Assembly: GCA_023269235.1 (NCBI GenBank)
Contig: JAHFTW010000004.1
Span: forward strand, 1-64,000
Origin: Thermoplasmata archaeon
Lineage (GTDB): Archaea; Thermoplasmatota; E2; JACPAO01; JAHFTW01
Reading direction: 5' to 3'
DNA length: 64,000 nt
Shown: positions 41,012 through 63,844 of the stretch, one piece after another
Layout of the letters: every line of letters begins with the position of its first letter
Numbering within the stretch: position 1 is the stretch's first letter
Program-made: the position numbers and the translations under genes
The notes under the pieces: generated by a model
Seen by the model: the letters and a program-made list of their open reading frames with translations, nothing else
What the model was told of the DNA's origin: nothing
Databases searched by the model: none

Positions 41012-42171
41012 CGCGGCAGCACCTCCAGGAACTTGTCAAGGGTCGCGTCCTCCACGGTGAGCGGCGGGAGCAGGCGCAGGCCGGTGGTGCCTCCGCCAAG
41101 GACGAGGAACCCCTGCGCCTGAAGGGCGGTGATGGCGGGTTGCGGCTTGACGCGCAGTTCGATGCCGACCATCGCCCCCGAGCCGCGCACGTCGCGGACA
41201 AGAGGATGCGCAAGCGAGCGGATGCCGGAGAGCAGGCGTTCGCCGATGGCGTGGGCTCGCCAAAGGAGCCGTTCGTCGTCGAGGATGCCAAGCACCGCGG
41301 AGCCGGCTGCGCAGGCGAGCGGGGCGCCGCCGTACGTGGAGCCGTGGCCGCCGGGGGGCAGCCGCGCCGCAAGCTCCTCGGTCATGGAGCAGGCGCCGAT
41401 GGGTAGCCCGCCGGCGAGCCCCTTGGCAAGGGCGACAGCGTCCGGCACGACGCCGGACGGTGTGGCAGCCAGGAACGTCCCGGTGCGACCGAGGCCGGAC
41501 TGGACCTCGTCGAAGACCAGGATGGCGCCGACGTCGGTGGCCACGTCGCGGGCGGCGCGGAGGAACGACGCCGTCGCGGCGCGCACGCCGCCTTCGCCCT
41601 GCACGGGCTCGACGACGACTGCCGCCGTGTCACGCGGGACGGCGGACTTGAGCGCCTCCTCGTCATTGAACGCCACGAACTCGGTTTTGGGCAGCATGGG
41701 CTGGAACGGCTCGCGGAACGCCGCGCGATGGGTGACCGACAGCGCCGCGGCGGTGCGACCATGGAACGAATCGCGGCAGGCGACGAAGCGGCCTCGCCCG
41801 GTCGCGGCGACGGCCAGTTTGAGGGCGCACTCCATCGCCTCGGCTCCGGAGTTGGCGAGGAACGTCCGTGCGAGCTGGGATGGAAGCCGGGCGTGGAGCG
41901 CATCAAGGAACGCGGCGCGCTCGGGGCTCTGGATGCCGGCGGCGACATGGAGGAGACGGTCGGCTTGCGCCTGGATTGCGGTGACGACGCGCGGATGGTT
42001 GTGGCCGACGAGGGCGACGCCGTGGCTGGCCCCTCCGAGATCGGTGTAGGCGCGGCCGGCCGCGTCCCAGATCGTGGCGTTCAGGGCGCGCTCGGCGACG
42101 ATGGGCTTGGCGGCGAACCCGCGCAGGAGCCGCGCCTCGCCCCCGGGAAGGGTCGCCTGCGCAGGGCTCAC
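40999..42171 (-). CDS. lysJ: [LysW]-aminoadipate semialdehyde/glutamate semialdehyde transaminase
   Basis: Class III aminotransferase FDEVQSGLGRTG, AKGLAGGLPIGA, GGHGSTYGGAPLACAA. GTG start overlapping lysZ. Confidence 0.88.
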   Translation of the reverse strand: MSPAQATLPGGEARLLRGFAAKPIVAERALNATIWDAAGRAYTDLGGASHGVALVGHNHPRVVTAIQAQADRLLHVAAGIQSPERAAFLDALHARLPSQLARTFLANSGAEAMECALKLAVAATGRGRFVACRDSFHGRTAAALSVTHRAAFREPFQPMLPKTEFVAFNDEEALKSAVPRDTAAVVVEPVQGEGGVRAATASFLRAARDVATDVGAILVFDEVQSGLGRTGTFLAATPSGVVPDAVALAKGLAGGLPIGACSMTEELAARLPPGGHGSTYGGAPLACAAGSAVLGILDDERLLWRAHAIGERLLSGIRSLAHPLVRDVRGSGAMVGIELRVKPQPAITALQAQGFLVLGGGTTGLRLLPPLTVEDATLDKFLEVLPRCLG

Positions 42172-49989: not shown

Positions 49990-50064
49990 AGCGGGGTGGG
50001 GTAGCCAGGAGATCCCGACGGGCTCATAACCCGTAGATCAGTCGTTCAAATCGACTCCCCGCTA
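49990..50064 (+). tRNA. Initiator tRNA-Met (CAT)
   Basis: AGCGGGG/CCCCGCT perfect 7-bp acceptor stem with A1:U72, ACGGG CTCATAA CCCGT anticodon arm, AGTCG TTCAAAT CGACT T-arm; no encoded CCA. Confidence 0.95.
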
Positions 50065-50103
50065 TTCACTATCCAGCTCCGCTTTGAACGAACGGACCCG
50101 CTT
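50052..50103. repeat. attL-like direct repeat copy 1, overlapping the tRNA-iMet 3' end
   Basis: cgactccccgctattcactatccagctccgctttgaacgaacggacccgctt; matches 52928-52979 at 46/52 positions by hand. Confidence 0.8.
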
Positions 50104-50201
50104 TGAACGAATGGCGGGCCTCGATTTGTTCAAGCGGCCGGAGACACTCCGCGCGAGCCCACTTCATATAGGCAGGGCAGGCGCTCGGGGGCCACGCGAC
50201 T

Positions 50202-51308
50202 ATGGCCGACCGGAAGCCGATCCTCGAACTCGGAGGCCCAAAACGGTTCGACCATCCGGAGGAGTTCCACCAAATCTTAGTCGAGCTCGCTCGCTGGGGA
50301 ATAGCGTCGCCGGCTAGCGACCTGGAATGGCTACGCAAGACAATCGGCGCCAAGTGGCGATGGGAGGCCGTTGGTGCGGTAGGGCAACTTATCGAAGCTC
50401 CAGGTCGGCGACACGGCCTGTTCCTGCAACACCTGCTTTCGCTTGTCCCCGCCCTCCGGCCTCTTTCCGTCTGTCCAGGATTCGAGAGGCTGATTCCTTC
50501 CCTCGTGAACGAGTCGGCCTACGACGCCACCATGTTCGAGCTCAGCGTTGCCATGCGTGTCGCCGAGAACGTATCGCCGTTCCAAATTGAGTTCAGCCCG
50601 GACGTCGTTGTTAAAGGCCGCAAGCGGCAGGCGGACATCGCCCTCAATCTTTCCCAACGAGTATGGGTTGAATGCAAAACGGTGCAGCCCCTGGAGCAAA
50701 GTTTCATCCAGGCACGACTAGGACGTCTCGGGGACGAATTCAAGCGCCTCATTCTTGCCCAAGGCCTTCCCGATCCAAATCCGCACATCGGCATCCATCT
50801 AAACGTGGGGGACGGCAAGGCATTCGAACGCCGTCTACCCGCATTGGCGGCTTCCCTCGGGCGGTTGGTCAGGTCGCAGGGATGGCAATCATTGATGGAT
50901 CATGACATCGACCCGACCGGCAAGGCTTGGCCAGCGGAAGGCCGCGAGGCCCGCGCAGGCATGGCCGGAATCCGCATTCCGCCGCTTTCGCCCAGCTTGC
51001 AGCCCCTACATTTCCATCATTCCATTGATTGGACTGCTTGGCAGTCGCGCAAGATCATCGATTTCATCAAGGAGGCCCTTGAACAACTGCCTCCAGGGGA
51101 GCCGCAAATCGTGTGCATCCGGACGCCCAATCCGCAAACGCATATCCAACGCGCCGAGCATTGGATCAAGGAAAGCCCGCGGGGCGAGAACGTGGCCGTA
51201 GTCCTCGTTGACTCAAACGAGACGACCGCAAGTTGGGTATCTAGACTGCGCCTGCCCGAATTGCTGACCGCAATCATCGGTTCGGTCAAAGAGAGCAACA
51301 CCGCCTAG
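50202..51308 (+). CDS. PD-(D/E)XK nuclease-like protein
   Basis: D-x(n)-ExK core: RKRQADIALNLSQRVWVECKTVQ. Confidence 0.5.
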   Translation: MADRKPILELGGPKRFDHPEEFHQILVELARWGIASPASDLEWLRKTIGAKWRWEAVGAVGQLIEAPGRRHGLFLQHLLSLVPALRPLSVCPGFERLIPSLVNESAYDATMFELSVAMRVAENVSPFQIEFSPDVVVKGRKRQADIALNLSQRVWVECKTVQPLEQSFIQARLGRLGDEFKRLILAQGLPDPNPHIGIHLNVGDGKAFERRLPALAASLGRLVRSQGWQSLMDHDIDPTGKAWPAEGREARAGMAGIRIPPLSPSLQPLHFHHSIDWTAWQSRKIIDFIKEALEQLPPGEPQIVCIRTPNPQTHIQRAEHWIKESPRGENVAVVLVDSNETTASWVSRLRLPELLTAIIGSVKESNTA

Positions 51309-52072
51309 GCCGACAATGTTGAACGCGAGGCCGTTCCGTCAGTGGAAAGCCAAGGCATGGGTGGGGGTGCATCGCAAAAGACCGGCTTGCCAACGCCATC
51401 TGCAAGCGTAGTTGCCACGCTGCCTTCGCTCCACAATACCACATTGCTCCCGGCGGCCTGCTTGCCATCAGTGCGGAGCGCCGCTACACTATCGTAGATG
51501 GCGCCTGCAAAATGGCGCCGAGCGGCCGTCGCCAATACTTGAGTGCCAAGGTGTGGCGACGGACCGCGATTGCCGACGTCCCGGCGGATAGTGCCAGTCC
51601 ACATGGACAGATGCGCCAGGAGGGAACCTTGGGCCAGGGCCGCGAGCCGCAAGTCTAGCAGTTGTTGCGGCGGTACCCGGAACGCATGGAACGAGTAGTC
51701 AGTGGGATCAGTGTCCTGGAAGATTTCGAACGGAACGTCCTCTGGGCTAGTGCACGCATACCATGCATGCTCGTCAGCAGAGTGGAAGCGTGACCCCTTG
51801 CCCTTCCAGACGCCATAGAATTTCGCGATTGGTGAGTTGTCATACAGGTGCGTCGACCCGTGAACAACTACTCCTTCGAACGGGCTTGCCTGAGACTCAG
51901 CAATTTCCAAGACTAAGCGTTGGCGCCCAAGTTCATGGGCCTTACGTTCAATGTTCGTTTCCGGGAACTTGATGCCATAGTTGGCCAAGACGCGTGCCTG
52001 CAATTCAGGGGTCTCGGGATCGTCGGATGCCTCAACAAGAGGGAATCCTTTGCGCTGAATGAAGGCGGCCAT
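51305..52072 (-). CDS. RES-domain-like protein (putative toxin)
   Basis: GKGSRFHSADEHAWYACTSPEDVPFEIF, FRVPPQQLLDLR, GTQVLATAARRHFAGAIYDSVA...GSNVVLW resemble the RES fold pattern. Confidence 0.55.
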   Translation of the reverse strand: MAAFIQRKGFPLVEASDDPETPELQARVLANYGIKFPETNIERKAHELGRQRLVLEIAESQASPFEGVVVHGSTHLYDNSPIAKFYGVWKGKGSRFHSADEHAWYACTSPEDVPFEIFQDTDPTDYSFHAFRVPPQQLLDLRLAALAQGSLLAHLSMWTGTIRRDVGNRGPSPHLGTQVLATAARRHFAGAIYDSVAALRTDGKQAAGSNVVLWSEGSVATTLADGVGKPVFCDAPPPMPWLSTDGTASRSTLSA

Positions 52073-52079
52073 TGAAATC

Positions 52080-52832
52080 CTATGCGAGCGGCGTCGCAGT
52101 CGTCCAGACCTTATCGAAGAACGCGCGATCCTCCAGATCTGGTTCAAGCCGAATGGCCTCATTCTTGTGTAGGGAATTCAAGGACAGACCCAGTAGGAGA
52201 GATTGCCCCCCGCTCAGAAGCATGAAGCGACGATGTTCCGACCCTGACATGATTCGGATTTCACCCGTGATCTTGAGTTGTGCCAGCCACATGTCAAAGC
52301 CAGCCTTCGTCAGGGTGGGAATTTGCCCGGTGGTCTTCGCAGTACTCAGCACACGAACCCCGTTCGTTACCGTGCCCCGGCCGAACGAGAGAACCTTGAT
52401 CAGTTCAGCAAGAGACCGGTTTTCTAGGTAGGGGTCGAAAATGGCCTGTACGGTTTCTGTGCCGACAAGGCTCGAAATCGTTGCCAAGTTAGAGGCGGGT
52501 GAATCTTGAGCAAGGCGACCGGAGGTTGGCGACCTTGCCCACCCCGCGCCGAGCACACGCTGAGCAATTCCATCCACAGCGCTCCGAAGTTGGGCTGAAG
52601 TTGAGACATCTGCAATTGACCACGGTTGGCCGAATTCTTCGGCCTGCACTTGGCAGCCTCCGGCGGTAAGAACGAAGTTGATCCGCTGGCGCTCGGTCAA
52701 AGCAAGGACGAGGAAATGCGGCCCTTGAGAACCTTGGAAAACCTGGTAGCCGCGTTGGCTTTGTTCGGTGAGGTAGCGAACGACGTCGTCACGCCCAAGC
52801 GACGTAGCCGGCATCTGCGGGAACTCGTTCAC
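52080..52832 (-). CDS. PLD-like/degenerate HKD domain protein with novel N-terminus; partner of the RES-like gene
   Basis: C-terminal VQAIFDPYLENRSLAELIKVLSF...VRVLSTAKTT...SEHRRFMLLSGGQSLLLGLSLNSLHKNEA...VWTTATPL. Confidence 0.45.
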   Translation of the reverse strand: MNEFPQMPATSLGRDDVVRYLTEQSQRGYQVFQGSQGPHFLVLALTERQRINFVLTAGGCQVQAEEFGQPWSIADVSTSAQLRSAVDGIAQRVLGAGWARSPTSGRLAQDSPASNLATISSLVGTETVQAIFDPYLENRSLAELIKVLSFGRGTVTNGVRVLSTAKTTGQIPTLTKAGFDMWLAQLKITGEIRIMSGSEHRRFMLLSGGQSLLLGLSLNSLHKNEAIRLEPDLEDRAFFDKVWTTATPLA

Positions 52833-52927
52833 GAGATTGAATGATCGACTGGTCTCTTAGCATTCGCGGACAGCCCCTAAACGGCGCCGCGATTCGACGC
52901 CCAAATCGAGCCTTTCCTGCTGAACCT

Positions 52928-52979
52928 CGATTCCCCGCTATTCACTTCCCAGCTCAGCCTTGAACGAATGGACCCGCTT
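52928..52979. repeat. att-like direct repeat copy 2
   Basis: cgattccccgctattcacttcccagctcagccttgaacgaatggacccgctt; same orientation as copy 1. Confidence 0.8.
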
Positions 52980-55733: not shown

Positions 55734-56909
55734 CTATCCGTAACCCAGGTCGTTGTCCTTTGTTGGCGGCTTGACGGCTTCGGACAGAAGGCCACGGCGA
55801 AGCTCGTCGTCGAATTCCTGCTGGGAGATCTTGCCGCGCTTGAGGTCGATGTACAGGGAGCCGATGCGTTCCGCAGGGGACTTTGACACGTTGACACCGG
55901 GAAGAAGATCGCGGCGAGCCATGCGGTCGTCGATGGTGGGCTGGTTGTAGTGTTTCTCGAAGATTTTTGCCGTGATTCCCAACTGTTCGCGCGCAAGGCG
56001 TGGGTTGTCTCGCGCCATGTGCGTGCCCACACTCTTGCGAGGAACATGGGTGGTTACGCGCTTGCGCAATCCCGCCAATTCGGCCAATTTGTGAAGACCT
56101 TCGTTGACCGTCTTGTACGTCACGACAGCCCCACGGGGACCCATGAGGAGAGGAGTTTTGTCCTCGCCTTGCCATGTACCGGCCTTGATGAGGAAGGCGC
56201 GCTGCTCCGCAATTGCGCGCAGGGCTCGATCCGTAACGAGCGCCTCGTGGGATTCCTTGTTCTTGACCTTGGGAAAATTGATGATCCCGCGGTGGAAATC
56301 TACCTGCTGGAACGTGGTTTTCGGGGAGCCAATTGAATCCCAACGTCCGGCGCTGCTCATGGCGACCTCGAGGAAGAGGCCGACCGCGTTGCGGTAGTGG
56401 GCGTTCTGCATTCCGAGCTCCGGAAGGTGGCTCAGCATGGCTTCCATGTCCTCGATTGTAAGGTGGTCGCCTTGCTTGGCGGTCTGGCGAAAGACCTTCA
56501 TTTTGAGGCAGCCGTCAGTGCCGGGTCGCTGGTCCCCTTGTCCCATTAGCAAATTTTGGACGGAATTCCAATCTTTCGAGAGGTTATGACAGTAATTTTC
56601 GGAGAGAATTTCGCTTTGGATCTGCGCTCTAAGAAACGCTCGGTATTCCGTGATGGACTTCGTGTCAACTGTCGCCATGTCGAGGCCGCGCTGGGCCAAG
56701 TCGCGGAGGATTTTGCAAAGCACCACAGTCTTGTTTCGCTTAGTGCTGGGCTCGAGGATGCGCTTAGCGTGAAAGTCCTCCATGATGAGATCGGCTGCCT
56801 GCTTTGGCGGAAGACCGGCGTAGCGGGCGCGGTCAATGACCTCGACTTTGGCTGCCTCGGGCGCCACGAAGGAGCCGAAGCTGGGCTTAGTGGACTTCGG
56901 GGTCGTCAC
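55734..56909 (-). CDS. Tyrosine recombinase/integrase 1 (canonical catalytic motifs)
   Basis: Box I SSAGRWDSIGS, beta-hairpin Lys FPKVKNKES, HVPRKSVGTHMA (HxxR), KHYNQ nucleophile Tyr. GTG start within the end of the histone-fold gene. Confidence 0.8.
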   Translation of the reverse strand: MTTPKSTKPSFGSFVAPEAAKVEVIDRARYAGLPPKQAADLIMEDFHAKRILEPSTKRNKTVVLCKILRDLAQRGLDMATVDTKSITEYRAFLRAQIQSEILSENYCHNLSKDWNSVQNLLMGQGDQRPGTDGCLKMKVFRQTAKQGDHLTIEDMEAMLSHLPELGMQNAHYRNAVGLFLEVAMSSAGRWDSIGSPKTTFQQVDFHRGIINFPKVKNKESHEALVTDRALRAIAEQRAFLIKAGTWQGEDKTPLLMGPRGAVVTYKTVNEGLHKLAELAGLRKRVTTHVPRKSVGTHMARDNPRLAREQLGITAKIFEKHYNQPTIDDRMARRDLLPGVNVSKSPAERIGSLYIDLKRGKISQQEFDDELRRGLLSEAVKPPTKDNDLGYG

Positions 56910-57213
56910 GGACGTCCGCCTCCTCTTTGGCTTGACGGATGGGCAACTGGCCAAGGCCGCGGAGAACGTGGCGGGTCCGGACCTTCGGAGTCGCGGGAGT
57001 GCGGCCTTGGATTTGCCTCGAGGTGGCCTGCGCTTGCCATGACCTGGCAATCGCGGCGATGAGGTCCGTGACGAGGTCTTGGATCGCTTCATCGAGTTCG
57101 TCGACGGCATCGTCTTCCATGCTGCTTGCGCCCGTCTGGTCAAGCACTCGCTTGCGCAGTGTGGCCTTGCTTGCGTGATGGATCCCGTGCTTCGGGGGTT
57201 CGCGCTTGGTCAT
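56887..57213 (-). CDS. Histone-fold-like protein
   Basis: LRKRVLDQTGASSMEDDAVDELDEAIQDLVTDLIAAIARSWQAQ...GRTPATPKVRTRHVLRGL parallels archaeal histone helix1-L1-helix2-helix3. Confidence 0.55.
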   Translation of the reverse strand: MTKREPPKHGIHHASKATLRKRVLDQTGASSMEDDAVDELDEAIQDLVTDLIAAIARSWQAQATSRQIQGRTPATPKVRTRHVLRGLGQLPIRQAKEEADVRDDPEVH

Positions 57214-57220
57214 GGGCGCC

Positions 57221-57718
57221 TCAACGAGGATTAGCGCCCTCGGGCGCTCCAGCTTGGTCATCACGGTCTTCACTGGCCGCCGGCGCGGCCCGCCCCACGG
57301 CCGCGCGGCGAACCACGTGGGCATGATCTCCGTCGATGGCCTGGTAGTTGTTGCAGCGGCGGTAAATCTGGAAGTACAGGGTCTGCCGGGGCTTGCCGTT
57401 GCGGCCATCCAGGCGCTTGCCGCCGCCAATCCAGCGCCAGATTTCCACCGAGTCGTGGGTATCGTTCCACGGGACGGCCTCAAGTTCGCGAATCTTGCGT
57501 CCGATGTTGCGGCCGCCCGTCACCTGAACCCAACGCGTTGGGCCCGAGTTCTTGGCGAGGAGGTCGATGCAGCCGAAGACGTCACTGGCGACCATAATCC
57601 ACCCGCGGCCCGTGCGAATCGGTGTTCGCGTGCAGCGATGCACCGTGTAGCCTTGGTCTTCGAGGATGCGGATGGCCTCGCGTTCGATGGCGGTTCCTTT
57701 GGCGACATTGTTGGCCAT
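57221..57718 (-). CDS. Hjc-like/PD-(D/E)XK superfamily nuclease
   Basis: KGTAIEREAIRILEDQGYTVHRC...SDVFGCIDLLAKNSGPTRWVQVTGGRN. Confidence 0.55.
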   Translation of the reverse strand: MANNVAKGTAIEREAIRILEDQGYTVHRCTRTPIRTGRGWIMVASDVFGCIDLLAKNSGPTRWVQVTGGRNIGRKIRELEAVPWNDTHDSVEIWRWIGGGKRLDGRNGKPRQTLYFQIYRRCNNYQAIDGDHAHVVRRAAVGRAAPAASEDRDDQAGAPEGANPR

Positions 57719-57719
57719 G

Positions 57720-58958
57720 CTAGTCCTCCGCGAGAGCCAGTTCGGCGCCGAGCTCCAACCGAAGCTGGTCCGCGTCGAGGGGAATCGTGTTCGCGTTGCG
57801 CAGAGGGTGGCCGCAGTGACGACACGCCTGGTCCGCTAGGCCGTGTGGGCCGCGGCAGCGCGTGCAATACCTGCCCTTCGTTGGCTTGCCCTGGAGTTCA
57901 TCCATAATTTGGACGACTTCCTCGAGCCCCAGTTTCGTGTAGCGCATGCCCATTTGACTCATCGGGCTGTGTGCGAACTTGAGGCGCATGTCGCGATCTG
58001 AGTCTCCACTGGCTGCGGCCTGGTTGTGGCCGAGCCGGCGGAACGATTGCACCCCATAGTAGGGCAGTTTGGCCTTGCCGCAGGCACGCCGAATCAGGCG
58101 ATCAGCCGTCGCTCGGTGCATCGGGGCGCAGACTCCTTTGCTAGCCTGCCACGGATCGGGAAGGAGAGGGGCGTTGGGGTCGTCCTTCTTCGGATGCAAA
58201 GACAGCAGGTGGAGGAGGGCGTTTGTTTGGTCGCGGTTGTGGTAGAGGGTCACGGTCTTCTTGTTGCGGTAGCCGCGCGGCACGTCGACGGTGGCCAAGT
58301 CGCCCTCGATGCGCAGGTGTTTCCGGGCGGTGCGCAGGAAGGGTGTGCCGCGGGTGTGGGGAAGAATCTGGATTAGGTACGTAGCGGTGGCCTTGTGCAG
58401 TGCCGGGAGCCGAATTTTCGGGCAGGCAGCCAGCATCTTGACGCGGTGCTCCTCCTTGAGCCAAGTTCTCTTCCGGGGTCGGCCTTTTGGCAGGTCAATG
58501 AGGCCATCTTGGTAGACCAGGTTCCGCGCCTGCTCTTCGGCCTCCTTGGTTGTCACGCGTTGGCGAATCAGATGGAAGCGAACGTACTCGGAAAGTTGCT
58601 TCATCTGTTCACGGCGAGTGCTGGCCGAAACGGGCCGCATGCGAGTTTCGTGAAGCTTCGTTCCCGCCCGAGGGTACTGAGGCCATGCAGGCGTGTTTGC
58701 CCAAGCGCGTACGACTTCCTGGGACGGCGGTGCCAGCGAGGCGCTTCCGACCAAAGTGGCCATGCGGACCAGAGGCCGGAGCACGTCCTGAACCGTAGAG
58801 AGGGTCTTGCGGTTGCGCGCCAAGTTGGCCAAGTAGGCATGAACCTCGCGGACTTGTCGTTCCGTGTTCAAACGTGAAAGGTGACTCAGCACTTGCACTG
58901 CCTCGCGTCGGTGCCAGGTCTTCTTGACCCACGTTTCAATGTCGGGTGGCAGCTTCAT
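57720..58958 (-). CDS. Tyrosine recombinase-like protein 2 with C-terminal zinc ribbon
   Basis: HTRGTPFLRTARKHL, GVQSFRRLGHNQAAASG (QxxR), FAHSPMSQMGMRYTKLG, zinc ribbon CTRCRGPHGLADQACRHCG. Confidence 0.7.
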   Translation of the reverse strand: MKLPPDIETWVKKTWHRREAVQVLSHLSRLNTERQVREVHAYLANLARNRKTLSTVQDVLRPLVRMATLVGSASLAPPSQEVVRAWANTPAWPQYPRAGTKLHETRMRPVSASTRREQMKQLSEYVRFHLIRQRVTTKEAEEQARNLVYQDGLIDLPKGRPRKRTWLKEEHRVKMLAACPKIRLPALHKATATYLIQILPHTRGTPFLRTARKHLRIEGDLATVDVPRGYRNKKTVTLYHNRDQTNALLHLLSLHPKKDDPNAPLLPDPWQASKGVCAPMHRATADRLIRRACGKAKLPYYGVQSFRRLGHNQAAASGDSDRDMRLKFAHSPMSQMGMRYTKLGLEEVVQIMDELQGKPTKGRYCTRCRGPHGLADQACRHCGHPLRNANTIPLDADQLRLELGAELALAED

Positions 58959-58959
58959 G

Positions 58960-60219
58960 CTAGTTCACCTTCTCGACGGCGGCGATGGCGGCCCGGATGC
59001 GTTGCTCCAGGCTTTGTCCGTTGACCTCGAGCAGGTCAGCCACGTCGCGCATGATTTTGGCACGAATGGCGTTGGCTTCGCTCAGGACATCTTCGGTGAG
59101 CTCGGTTCCGCACACGGGGCAGTACTGGTCGCCGGCTGCGTTGTTTGGGTTGCCGCATCCGACGCAGGCAACTAGGCCTGCGTCCGGGCCGGCCTGGCGG
59201 GCGGGTCCCCCGATGGGTCGGCCGGCCTTCTTGGCACGGTCTGCGTAGTCTCGCATGTAGTAGACTCGGTTCATGCTGCCAACGCCCATGATGTGGCTGA
59301 GAAACTGGTCGGGAACAGCGCGGCCCGCTAGGTAGAGCAGGTAGGCTTCCTGCATGGTGCGCGTGTTGACGCCTCGGACGACGGCCTTCTTGGACCAAAA
59401 CTTGACTTTGTACGCGAGATGGGCGCGACTCATCGGCTTGGTGGAATCAAGGGGGTCCGGGAACAGGAACTGGCGTTCGGGTTCGTTTGCCTTGACGTGG
59501 CGCACGAAGGCGCCCATGGTCTTGGCTTCGTGGTGGATGGGAACGATGCGTTCGTCCGGCCAGTTCCTCGTTGGGGGGACGCGAAGCAGGGCTCGCCCGC
59601 CTTCGAAGAAGACGGCCTCCATGCGGATGGCGCGCAGGTCCTGGCTGTGCACCCCGGTCCCGCTGAGCAAGTCCAATTGCGCCTTGCCTTCCAGGTCGGT
59701 CAAGCCGCGCATCTTGGCGATGTCTTCCCAGGAGCAACCGAGGGGGCGGTTGCTTCCCCAGGCAAGGTTGGAGCTCATGATGGGCGCCCTCCGGAGGCCT
59801 TCGTCGGCGCCGAAGCGGCTCTGGAGAAAGTAGAGAACGAAGCGTTGGTGCTCGTAGGCGACTTGGTTGCTTAGTGTCTGCCGCGGTTGTTCCGGGTTGG
59901 GAGTTGTGCGGTCGGTGAAGTACTCGTTGAAGAACACATCATCGAGGCTTTCCAATTCGCGCTCGCCGGCCGCTACGAGGTAGCTGCCGACGGCTTGCAC
60001 ACGGTTGACGATGGTGGAGGTCTGGACGCGTCGATCGCGCTTCAATCCGGTGCGGCCGTCGGGTGCGGTGGGGAGTTCTGCCGTCCACTCCGCCAGCGCC
60101 AGGGCGTTGTCCTGGTTGGGCACACACAGGACCTTCGTCATGATGTGGCGGCGGTGCTCGGAGTCCGGGATGGCGGCTTCGATGATGGTACGGACCTTGG
60201 CTTCGTGTTCCGGGTTCAT
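58960..60219 (-). CDS. Tyrosine recombinase-like protein 3, degenerate active site, C-terminal zinc ribbon
   Basis: LLSGTGVHSQDLRAIRM (box I Arg replaced), no HxxR in NTRTMQEAYLLYLAGRAVPDQFLSHIMGVGSMNRVYYM, zinc ribbon CVGCGNPNNAAGDQYCPVCG. Confidence 0.65.
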   Translation of the reverse strand: MNPEHEAKVRTIIEAAIPDSEHRRHIMTKVLCVPNQDNALALAEWTAELPTAPDGRTGLKRDRRVQTSTIVNRVQAVGSYLVAAGERELESLDDVFFNEYFTDRTTPNPEQPRQTLSNQVAYEHQRFVLYFLQSRFGADEGLRRAPIMSSNLAWGSNRPLGCSWEDIAKMRGLTDLEGKAQLDLLSGTGVHSQDLRAIRMEAVFFEGGRALLRVPPTRNWPDERIVPIHHEAKTMGAFVRHVKANEPERQFLFPDPLDSTKPMSRAHLAYKVKFWSKKAVVRGVNTRTMQEAYLLYLAGRAVPDQFLSHIMGVGSMNRVYYMRDYADRAKKAGRPIGGPARQAGPDAGLVACVGCGNPNNAAGDQYCPVCGTELTEDVLSEANAIRAKIMRDVADLLEVNGQSLEQRIRAAIAAVEKVN

Positions 60220-60542
60220 GTTTCGTCCTCCTGGATGATGGGCAGCGCCGCGGCGCCCGACCCCAGGCGCCGCCGCGCGCCAAGTCGTTCCTTCAGGGCC
60301 CGGAGATGGTCGTGGAATCGCAGGCGCGTTGCCCGCAGCATCTCCTCATGGCCGGCGTGTCGGGGGTTCTGCTTCTGGGCCATGGCGTCGCAAAGGTCTT
60401 GGGCCAACGCGAGCCGGGTCTGCGGGGGTGCCGATGCAATCATGAGGTTGGCCGCCAGGCGCCGGTCCTCGTCCCAGAACGTCTCGCGCACAATGCGCAA
60501 GGCGACATCGAGTTGGTACTCGGCATTCCGCGTGAGGTTCAT
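60216..60542 (-). CDS. Small orphan helical protein C of recombinase operon
   Basis: MNLTRNAEYQLDVALRIVRETFWDEDRR...; ATGA overlap with Int3. Confidence 0.55.
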   Translation of the reverse strand: MNLTRNAEYQLDVALRIVRETFWDEDRRLAANLMIASAPPQTRLALAQDLCDAMAQKQNPRHAGHEEMLRATRLRFHDHLRALKERLGARRRLGSGAAALPIIQEDET

Positions 60543-60868
60543 TTCCGGGCCCTCCGTTCTGCCAGGTCAGTGAGCAGGCGTGCCGCCTTGACGAGCGAAG
60601 CCGAATCGACCTTGGCTGGGTGGAAGTGCTCTTCGTCGGGGTCAGACGAGAACAGGGCGGCGAGGCGCAGCGCCATGAGGTGCCGGCGGTTCCACAGGTT
60701 GTCGGACACGTTTTGAGCTGCGTCCAGGGCCGCTTGCGGTCCGCGGAGGCGTCCGACCTCCTCGACCATGACCGTGAGCAGCCACAGGAAGGGGCCGTCG
60801 GGGATGACGTCGTCCAGGATGCGGCGAGCCGTGCTGACCTTGTAGGCCGGAGAGTCGGTCAGGTTCAC
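60539..60868 (-). CDS. Small orphan helical protein B of recombinase operon
   Basis: VNLTDSPAYKVSTARRILDDVIPDGPF...; GTG start, 4-nt overlaps on both sides. Confidence 0.55.
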   Translation of the reverse strand: MNLTDSPAYKVSTARRILDDVIPDGPFLWLLTVMVEEVGRLRGPQAALDAAQNVSDNLWNRRHLMALRLAALFSSDPDEEHFHPAKVDSASLVKAARLLTDLAERRARK

Positions 60869-61314
60869 GCCGGCACCCCCGGCTTGGCCGCTGTGGGCCC
60901 GTTCTTGCAACCGTACGGCCCACGTGTAGCGACGTTTGTTGTAGCGATGGAAGTCATCGACGACAAATCGTCGTTGGACGTGCGCGCCGCCATGGCGGCG
61001 CGCTGCTCGGCGTCATTCAGGCGCCCAATGGCTGCCTCAGTCTTGGCGCGCAGAGCGTCATCAAGGCAGGCGCCGGCACTGGCGGGCGTGTGGGGATGGT
61101 CGGCGCAGTAGGCGTTGGCGAACTCGATGAGTTGCGGCGGGGCCTGAACGGGCTTCAGGTTGGCAAGGCCCGTGGAGCCGGGGACGCGCGCGAGGATGGC
61201 CTCGCCGCAGATCCAGGACTCGGTGGTTAGGTGGGTGTGGCCGTGGGGAATGCAAAAGATGTGGCTAAGGGTCGCGAGGGCTGCGGCGTTGGTCTTGGTG
61301 ATTTGGAGACTCAT
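60865..61314 (-). CDS. Orphan protein A, first gene of recombinase operon
   Basis: MSLQITKTNAAALATLSHIFCIPHGHTHLTTESWICGEAIL...; minus-strand TATA-like cattgtaaag about 40-50 nt upstream. Confidence 0.55.
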   Translation of the reverse strand: MSLQITKTNAAALATLSHIFCIPHGHTHLTTESWICGEAILARVPGSTGLANLKPVQAPPQLIEFANAYCADHPHTPASAGACLDDALRAKTEAAIGRLNDAEQRAAMAARTSNDDLSSMTSIATTNVATRGPYGCKNGPTAAKPGVPA

Positions 61315-62731: not shown

Positions 62732-63844
62732 CTACAATACGCCGGGCGTGAACGTCTCGGTTCCGGCTTGCATGATGAGGTCCTGGATGTCGTTGGGCAG
62801 GCACCACGCGCAGCCGCGGTGCGTGAACGCGTAGTCGAGCATTTGGCCAACGTAGCTGAATTGGCAATTCGACCCGATGACCACGATGCTGCGCTCGATG
62901 ACACCCAGAGCGTGGCCGGCGGCGTCGACGACCGGGCTGCCCGAGTCGCCGCCCAGGCATTGGCCCTCAAATTGTGCGGTGCTGCCCCAGTGGAGGTGGT
63001 AGGGGTCAACGGGGAGAGCTTCACTCGGCGTAGCGATGCCTTCGCGCGGCCGCGTCATCTCCTGGACGTGGGGGACGGTGCCGGCGACGCCGGGGGCTGT
63101 CTCGCGGTAAATGGTGCCGCCCACCGTGTAGAGGTGGTCACCTGCGACGGGGTGGGTGCTCGTCGTGGGAGCCACGGGGCCGCCCCAGTGGTCGAGGCTG
63201 GGGTTGACGACGTGGGGGTCGACTTCGATGAGGGCGAAGTCGTTCTCGTAGCACGCTTCAACGTTGTGTTCGCCGATGAGCTTCATGGCGAGGTTGGAGT
63301 TGTAGACGAGGTGGCCGACGCTGGTGGCGGCCGCGGCATTCATCCATTGGAGGTTGGGGCCGAAGAAGGCGAGGCGTTGGTCGTTGGTGGGGTCCGCGGG
63401 GGCCGGGTCCGCGAGGGCGGCGCAATCGCCGCCGCTCTTGGGGAGGGCCGCGCAGTGGGCGGCGGTGCCGATGAAGACGCGCGTCGCGTTCGGGTTGGTG
63501 AACACGAAGTTGGCGGTGCAGTCGCCGTTCCAGGAGATGAATTGCACGCCGGGGTACACTTTGGCGTCCGCTTTCGGGGTCCAGCCGTCGTGTGTGAGGT
63601 TCCACGCGGGAGGCTGCGTGGTGTTCGTCGTCGAGTTGGTGGTGGGGTGCGAGCTCGTCGAGGATGAGGAGCTGGGCGGCGACGAGGAAGCGGAGGACGA
63701 GTGGCTGCTCGTCGAGGATGCCGAGGTGGTCGTCGTAGTGCCGGACGTGTCGGTGCCGGTGATGGGCGCGGTGGGCGCGTCGTGGGCGGAGCTGGTGCAC
63801 CCGCTGAGCAAGGCAACCAGGGCAACGAAGACGAGGAACTTCAT
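62732..63844 (-). CDS. Trypsin-like serine protease lipoprotein with Ser/Thr-rich linker
   Basis: LLSGC lipobox; triad motifs GTAAHC, ENDFALIEV, GGDSGSPV. Confidence 0.8.
   Translation of the reverse strand: MKFLVFVALVALLSGCTSSAHDAPTAPITGTDTSGTTTTTSASSTSSHSSSASSSPPSSSSSTSSHPTTNSTTNTTQPPAWNLTHDGWTPKADAKVYPGVQFISWNGDCTANFVFTNPNATRVFIGTAAHCAALPKSGGDCAALADPAPADPTNDQRLAFFGPNLQWMNAAAATSVGHLVYNSNLAMKLIGEHNVEACYENDFALIEVDPHVVNPSLDHWGGPVAPTTSTHPVAGDHLYTVGGTIYRETAPGVAGTVPHVQEMTRPREGIATPSEALPVDPYHLHWGSTAQFEGQCLGGDSGSPVVDAAGHALGVIERSIVVIGSNCQFSYVGQMLDYAFTHRGCAWCLPNDIQDLIMQAGTETFTPGVL

Follow-up and report, generated by a model that had tools for sequence, protein, structure and literature searches.

The question raised by this locus is what a protein built like a recombinase might do once most of its catalytic residues have gone. 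The window, by which we mean the whole 64,000-nucleotide stretch of DNA that was analyzed, belongs to contig C15 of an archaeal genome of ~1.96 Mb (26 contigs, ~70% GC). It encodes, among other proteins, a replication factor C large subunit and a PINA-type ATPase, and on its minus strand lies a cluster of genes in the order orfA, orfB, orfC, Int3, Int2, Hjc-like gene, short ORF and Int1. The probable start gene of the operon is orfA (60868-61314; 149 aa), and this is followed by orfB (60539-60910; 123 aa) and orfC (60216-60542; 108 aa), all three of unassigned function. Adjacent genes overlap by 4 nt (ATGA) where orfB meets orfC and where orfC meets the start of Int3. Int3 (58960-60219; 419 aa) and Int2 (57720-58958; 412 aa) lie where the first-pass annotation had placed them, and the gene for the Hjc-like protein (57221-57718; 165 aa), the third of the unit, starts 1 nt past the Int2 stop; the same sequence, TAGCATG, joins Int3 to Int2 and Int2 to the Hjc-like gene, with a 1-nt gap each time. 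Finally come a short ORF (56887-57212; ~108 aa), whose coding status is doubtful since its GC content is highest at codon position 2, and Int1 (55734-56909; 391 aa; GTG start), a near-canonical tyrosine recombinase that lies outside the 57720-60219 segment.

Int3 is, on alignment evidence, a full-length protein of the recombinase fold that is catalytically degenerate. It has core-binding and catalytic domains homologous to those of the tyrosine recombinase superfamily. Against the profile of recombinases of the class it scores 45 in HHalign, where 100 shuffles peak at 19, and a core HMM (E=5.5e-7 for 6 sequences) supports the homology. The ten best PDB matches found by Foldseek are chains of Cre, Tre, XerH and IntI (best E=6.5e-4), although the query model is of low confidence (pLDDT 50) and, with a TM of ~0.2, too poor for active-site geometry. 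What the superfamily's R-K-H-R-H/W set and Tyr would lead one to expect is mostly missing. Box I reads GTGVH191SQDL, with H191 in the place of Arg; box II is R287-T-M-Q290 rather than HxxR; and box III is G-V313 rather than G-H/W. The only catalytic residue left is Tyr320/321, which falls at the nucleophile position within the uncertainty of the alignment. HMM, HH and multiple alignments concur on H191 and the box II region, and the register of box III and the Tyr is uncertain by 1–3 residues. The first-pass annotation, which reported that Int3 has neither a box I Arg nor an HxxR, read these regions correctly, and profile alignment puts H191, R287, Q290 and V313 at the catalytic positions. In an alignment of 27 tyrosine recombinases, of which 5 belong to this genome and 22 come from elsewhere in the class, all 27 have the box I Arg, all 27 have the box II Arg, and 26 have the Tyr.

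Int1 and Int2 depart from the standard far less. Int1 matches PF00589 in a profile search (E=2e-8) and displays R189, a Lys-rich hairpin, H288-V-P-R291 and Y321; it had been called canonical, a label that is slightly generous given that the box III His is replaced by Ile312, and near-canonical describes it better. Int2 displays R203, Q304-S-F-R307, H330 and Y340. The QxxR that had been noted in it is thus there, with Gln304 replacing the box II His; R203 was assigned to box I by motif reading, and its register is uncertain, the HH alignment being shifted by one residue. This QxxR is a mild departure, because Tyr occupies the same position in L064, an otherwise intact archaeal recombinase, and in the counterpart of Int2 on contig C9 described below. 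Single-family models give no significant match to Int2. When paired with its C9 counterpart, it matches recombinases of the class in HHalign with 90% probability; the Int2 score is 27.9, versus a shuffle maximum of 20.7. Searching other genomes of this phylum with the Int2 profile finds three recombinases (E=1e-6 to 9e-4). No recombinase is found among the PDB structure matches of its predicted model, whose confidence (pLDDT 36) is too low for residue positions to be fixed by superposition on Cre/XerA. From its motifs, we infer that Int2 would be catalytically active.

Both proteins carry a C-terminal four-Cys zinc ribbon (C365/368/379/382 in Int2; C352/355/367/370 in Int3), as had been seen by eye. 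The best structural matches of the Int2 ribbon region are to a zinc-ribbon ribosomal protein of archaeal and eukaryotic large subunits (E ~1). The ribbon was considered as a special feature of this cassette and rejected as such, for ordinary recombinases from other archaea of the phylum, with sites intact or nearly so, also end in one: L063 (R166, H262xxR265, W287, Y297) and L064 (R175, Y275xxR278, W302, Y312). It is an ordinary family trait of archaeal recombinases. L063 and L064 have the same order of core-binding, catalytic and zinc-ribbon domains as Int2 and Int3, and match the Int2 profile significantly; unlike Int3, they possess R, H/Y-xxR, W and Y. Neither an Int3 nor an Hjc-like neighbor gene occurs within the 3.4 kb examined around them. 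The L063 gene (L063:871-2115), with its intact site, adjoins a gene for a GHKL-type (Hsp90/MORC-like) ATPase, a neighborhood that suggests another defense island.

A second copy of the unit is present in the same genome, on contig C9, in identical order and strongly diverged. It comprises Int3' (94135-92867), 24% identical to Int3 (E=1e-11); Int2' (92870-91641), ~22% identical to Int2, a likeness undetectable by BLAST that positions and motifs nevertheless fit; and the Hjc-like' gene (91644-91225), 41% identical in product (E=4e-31). The junctions are ATGA and TTGA overlaps. Int2' has R232, Y342xxR345, H368 and Y377, and is without a ribbon. Int3' has Gln205 in box I, Glu295 and Arg298 in box II, Thr322 in box III, and no Tyr in the region of the nucleophile position; its ribbon consists of C360, H364 (possible), C373 and C376. 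Thus, both Int3 copies are without the box I Arg, the box II His and the box III His/Trp, whereas the box II Arg is kept in the C9 copy (R298) and lost in the window copy, and for the Tyr the reverse is true. As aligned, the box II Arg and the Tyr have been lost separately in the two copies, the pattern to be expected if catalysis is no longer under selection while the fold and the partners are. Both copies are intact frames of ~420 aa with a normal GC3 coding signature (0.81 and 0.76). What is conserved is the Int3–Int2–Hjc-like unit; in the C9 island Int1 has been swapped for an unrelated recombinase, whose likeness to Int1 is no closer than that of the family in general.

The proposal that Int3 is a pseudo-recombinase fares well on these comparisons, with some qualification. 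The protein is degenerate, its gene is intact, and a paralogous unit has the same gene order and shares the loss of the box I Arg, the box II His and the box III His/Trp; for these reasons a non-catalytic DNA-binding role seems likely and random decay unlikely. The losses are neither absolute nor identical between the copies, however: conservation of the degenerate residues, which had been put forward as a test, extends to an intact and likewise degenerate paralog in which the box II Arg and Tyr losses differ, and the sample is two sequences from one genome. Relatives of Int3 outside this genome were found neither among viral contigs and genome contigs, nor by tblastn of phages and plasmids, nor when 390 genomes of the phylum were searched with profiles, and in all of the collections searched the family has two members, both of them from here. 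Two further matches to the Int3 profile were rejected as relatives, being unrelated zinc ribbons. Pair profiles disclosed no hidden Int2 or Int3 partners for the other recombinases in the genome (contigs C10, C11 and C21). On C21, two recombinase genes at 41890 and 98572 (L014 and L015) give identical scores and represent a duplicated 449-aa frame.

The third protein of the unit recalls the Holliday junction resolvase Hjc. E12 and R13 lie in its first helix, KGTAIEREAIRILEDQGYTVHR, and these are followed by D46...D52 and then Q65-V-T67; it is the helix and the D...D...W-x-Q-V-T pattern that bring Hjc to mind. The matches themselves are sub-threshold, to a Holliday junction resolvase phrog (E=0.48) and to PDB 1gef (Hjc; E=1.7), the sole PDB match, and a Pfam search gave none. 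In all three copies in the genome, Q-V-T replaces the E-x-K of Hjc, and K75 is invariant. The protein may bind junctions without cutting them, or cut them by means of a displaced Lys. Relatives elsewhere were found in neither viral nor genome contigs, phages, plasmids, nor the 390 phylum genomes. The third copy, on contig C10 (L010:7773-8342), is solitary and adjoins a MutS2-like gene in core, high-GC DNA; it was considered as a third cassette and rejected, since recombinase neighbors are absent and the surroundings are of ordinary high GC.

Both units reside in islands of low GC content within this 70% GC genome. The C15 island is ~37 kb long (50.05-87.19 kb). GC content drops from 0.71 to 0.58 at the very position of a tRNA-Met gene (49990-50064, plus strand), the left end of the island and a candidate integration target, and recovers at ~88 kb of the contig. 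A 16-bp att-type core, CGACTCCCCGCTATTC, occupies the 3' end of this gene (50052-50067, plus strand) and recurs exactly at position 87173 of the contig. An internal copy with one mismatch (52928-52943, plus strand) marks the left end of the segment that bears the cassette, and a further one-mismatch copy is found at 85880. The flanks of these cores are also alike: 61 bp at 87% for the left pair (E=4e-14), and 81 columns at 70% for the right pair (E=7e-5). The island thus reads as three tandem segments, of 2.9 kb, 33 kb (cassette-bearing) and 1.3 kb, and the cassette operon begins 2.8 kb inside the C15 segment. The outer segments (50052-52943 and 85880-87188) are without a recombinase, as if such att-flanked segments were mobilized in trans by the neighboring element; the latter contains a third trypsin-like gene. 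The C9 island (~36 kb, ~63.94-99.60 kb) has a 14-bp direct repeat at both of its GC steps, for which the chance expectation in the stretch searched is ~0.3, making it supporting evidence only. Its target is the 3' end of a protein gene, and that of the C15 island is tRNA-Met.

The cargo of both islands is defensive in character. That of C15 includes MzaB (E=5e-70), MzaC (E=3e-138), MzaD, MzaE (E=4e-74), a methyltransferase, AbiEi (E=2e-34), AbiEii (E=3e-51), LmuB (E=7e-80) and LmuA (E=8e-31). On the contig, partly past the window, these form a near-complete Mza operon (MzaB, C, D and E) with a DNA cytosine methyltransferase nearby (66479-73970 and 76586-78241), and an AbiEi/AbiEii pair and a Lamassu LmuA/LmuB pair (79962-81496 and 81586-85072). 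C9 carries E2, E1-JAB, an IetA-like protein, MzaC/D-like proteins and a methyltransferase; E2 and E1/JAB (72537-74687) make up a ubiquitin-like conjugation defense operon, and the IetA-like ATPase lies further left. Genes for trypsin-like lipoproteins recur (L005:16442-17602; 62732-63844 in the window; C15 86060-87067). The window copy (minus strand) is 85% identical in nucleotide sequence to one in the C9 island, and the cassettes of the two islands are far more diverged than this shared gene; such identity between copies in otherwise diverged islands points to recent exchange.

The closest parallels are GInts and SEs. A GInt needs every one of its four gin genes, which encode GinD and three proteins resembling recombinases; among the latter, GinC is without the first Arg (PMC5385486). 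Their median size is 34.9 kb (PMC10214605), and they were not found in archaea (PMC5385486). Like GInts, the present elements have recombinase genes in an operon, one of them without the first Arg (H191 here, Q205 in C9), adaptive cargo, putative site-specific insertion with short direct repeats, and similar size. Unlike them, they are archaeal, the degenerate gene comes first (GinC is third), the accessory protein is Hjc-like rather than the helix-loop-helix GinD, and there are zinc ribbons; moreover, the third recombinase is not likewise adjacent and differs between the islands, and the operon is not at the element's very end. Plasmid and phage records searched by tblastn with Int3, and plasmid records searched likewise with Int2, yielded no match. 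In SEs, Tfp is a protein of the recombinase fold without RHRY, suggested to be a DNA binder, and the Tfp/GinC type is stated to be unique to SEs and GInts (PMC10214605). Tfp is translationally coupled to catalytic recombinases and a fourth protein, much as here; SEs differ in being gammaproteobacterial and in having Srap where the Hjc-like protein stands here; their ends are imperfect inverted repeats of 13–19 bp, with a 6-bp footprint. Family searches reported no srap-like gene beside the cassette. In anatomy, then, our case seems to resemble GInts and SEs; we do not claim membership, gene order and the fourth protein being different.

A different parallel is MrpR/YopR of phage SPbeta, a repressor of recombinase fold that has lost R, H and R, kept the Tyr, and has no recombination activity (PMC10516654). 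The fold, the loss of the catalytic Arg/His/Arg and the retention of the Tyr are shared with the window Int3; in contrast, MrpR is a stand-alone gene, without a zinc ribbon and uncoupled from recombinase and resolvase-like genes. Nor is the cluster a RIT (recombinase in trio): only Int3 and Int2 adjoin, two genes separate them from Int1, and C9 has a pair. Gamma-Mobile-Trio (GMT) islands have a recombinase-bearing module that carries defense cargo. Membership of this group was rejected, because GmtY (NF040693) has no match in the genome at E up to 1.

From what was computed, namely the fold, the residue losses, the gene order and coupling in two islands, the island boundaries and the cargo, Int3 probably serves as a non-catalytic subunit within a site-specific recombination module made of several proteins, by which the defense island would be moved. 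It would use its core-binding domain, its former catalytic domain and its zinc ribbon to bind att DNA, and would take protomer positions in the synaptic complex and orient that complex. The chemistry of strand exchange would fall to Int2 (R, QxxR, H, Y) and/or Int1, and the Hjc-like partner would bind or process the Holliday-junction intermediate. The conserved core would consist of Int3, Int2 and the Hjc-like protein, with an extra recombinase setting the target site, as is suggested by the fact that Int1 and its C9 counterpart are unrelated beyond the family while the target sites differ. Complex formation, DNA binding, the identity of the cutting protein and the mobility of the island are what we infer in this scheme. 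Counting against it, the window Int3 keeps its Tyr, so that residual activity is conceivable, and kinship to plasmid- or phage-borne proteins is undetectable by sequence. In a bolder and rather unlikely version, Int2 and Int3 would carry out a single-strand exchange that is finished by the Hjc-like partner, instead of by a second recombinase exchange or by replication, and an interchangeable third recombinase would pick the target; this would constitute a new archaeal class of integrative defense element.

It is possible, if doubtful, that the Int3–Int2–Hjc-like unit is some other module altogether (e.g. for dimer resolution or defense), and that Int1 alone integrates the element. Int1 is near-canonical and matches at the family level by itself, a different recombinase stands by itself beside the right end of the C9 island, and the Hjc-like gene is likewise found alone in C10, adjoining a MutS2-like gene; but two recombinase-fold proteins coupled to a junction-resolvase-like protein read most simply as recombination machinery, and GInts and SEs need all of their recombinase genes. 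We regard as unlikely a role for Int3 as a recombinase-derived repressor that binds sites in the island and silences the recombinase operon or the cargo, outside of recombination. The window Int3 does share the loss pattern of MrpR, Tyr included (PMC10516654), yet the C9 copy is without the Tyr that matters for DNA binding by MrpR, and the closest parallels at the level of the operon, GinC and Tfp, belong to recombination modules. In both islands Int3 partners Int2 and the Hjc-like gene in one operon, and it is for this partnership that we favor the recombination subunit over the repressor.

That Int3 is an active recombinase, with other residues substituting for the missing ones, is very unlikely. 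Tyr320/321 is present, the register of box III and the Tyr has the latitude already described, and IntDOT functions without the usual box I Arg; against this, the box I Arg and both the His and the Arg of box II, three positions at the least, have been lost together, and in the C9 copy the nucleophile position and its surroundings are without a Tyr. Least credible of all, and extremely improbable in our view, is the reading of Int3 as a one-time recombinase now decaying as a pseudogene: loss of catalytic residues and high divergence are what one would see, but two frames of ~420 aa have stayed intact at 24% identity with zinc ligands retained, coupled to Int2 in both places and normal in GC by codon position.

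If Int3 is indeed a non-catalytic recombination subunit, it would extend what is known of such proteins. Until now, catalytically dead recombinase subunits in mobile islands were known in bacteria alone, from GInts and SEs. The archaeal case looks independent: a dead and a live recombinase are conserved as a pair twice, with different losses, and are tied to a protein of the Holliday-junction type. Such a case would show this division of labor to be general, and would provide a compact system in which to study it. The islands themselves are a possible vehicle for the exchange of Mza, AbiE, Lamassu and ubiquitin-like defense systems among archaea.
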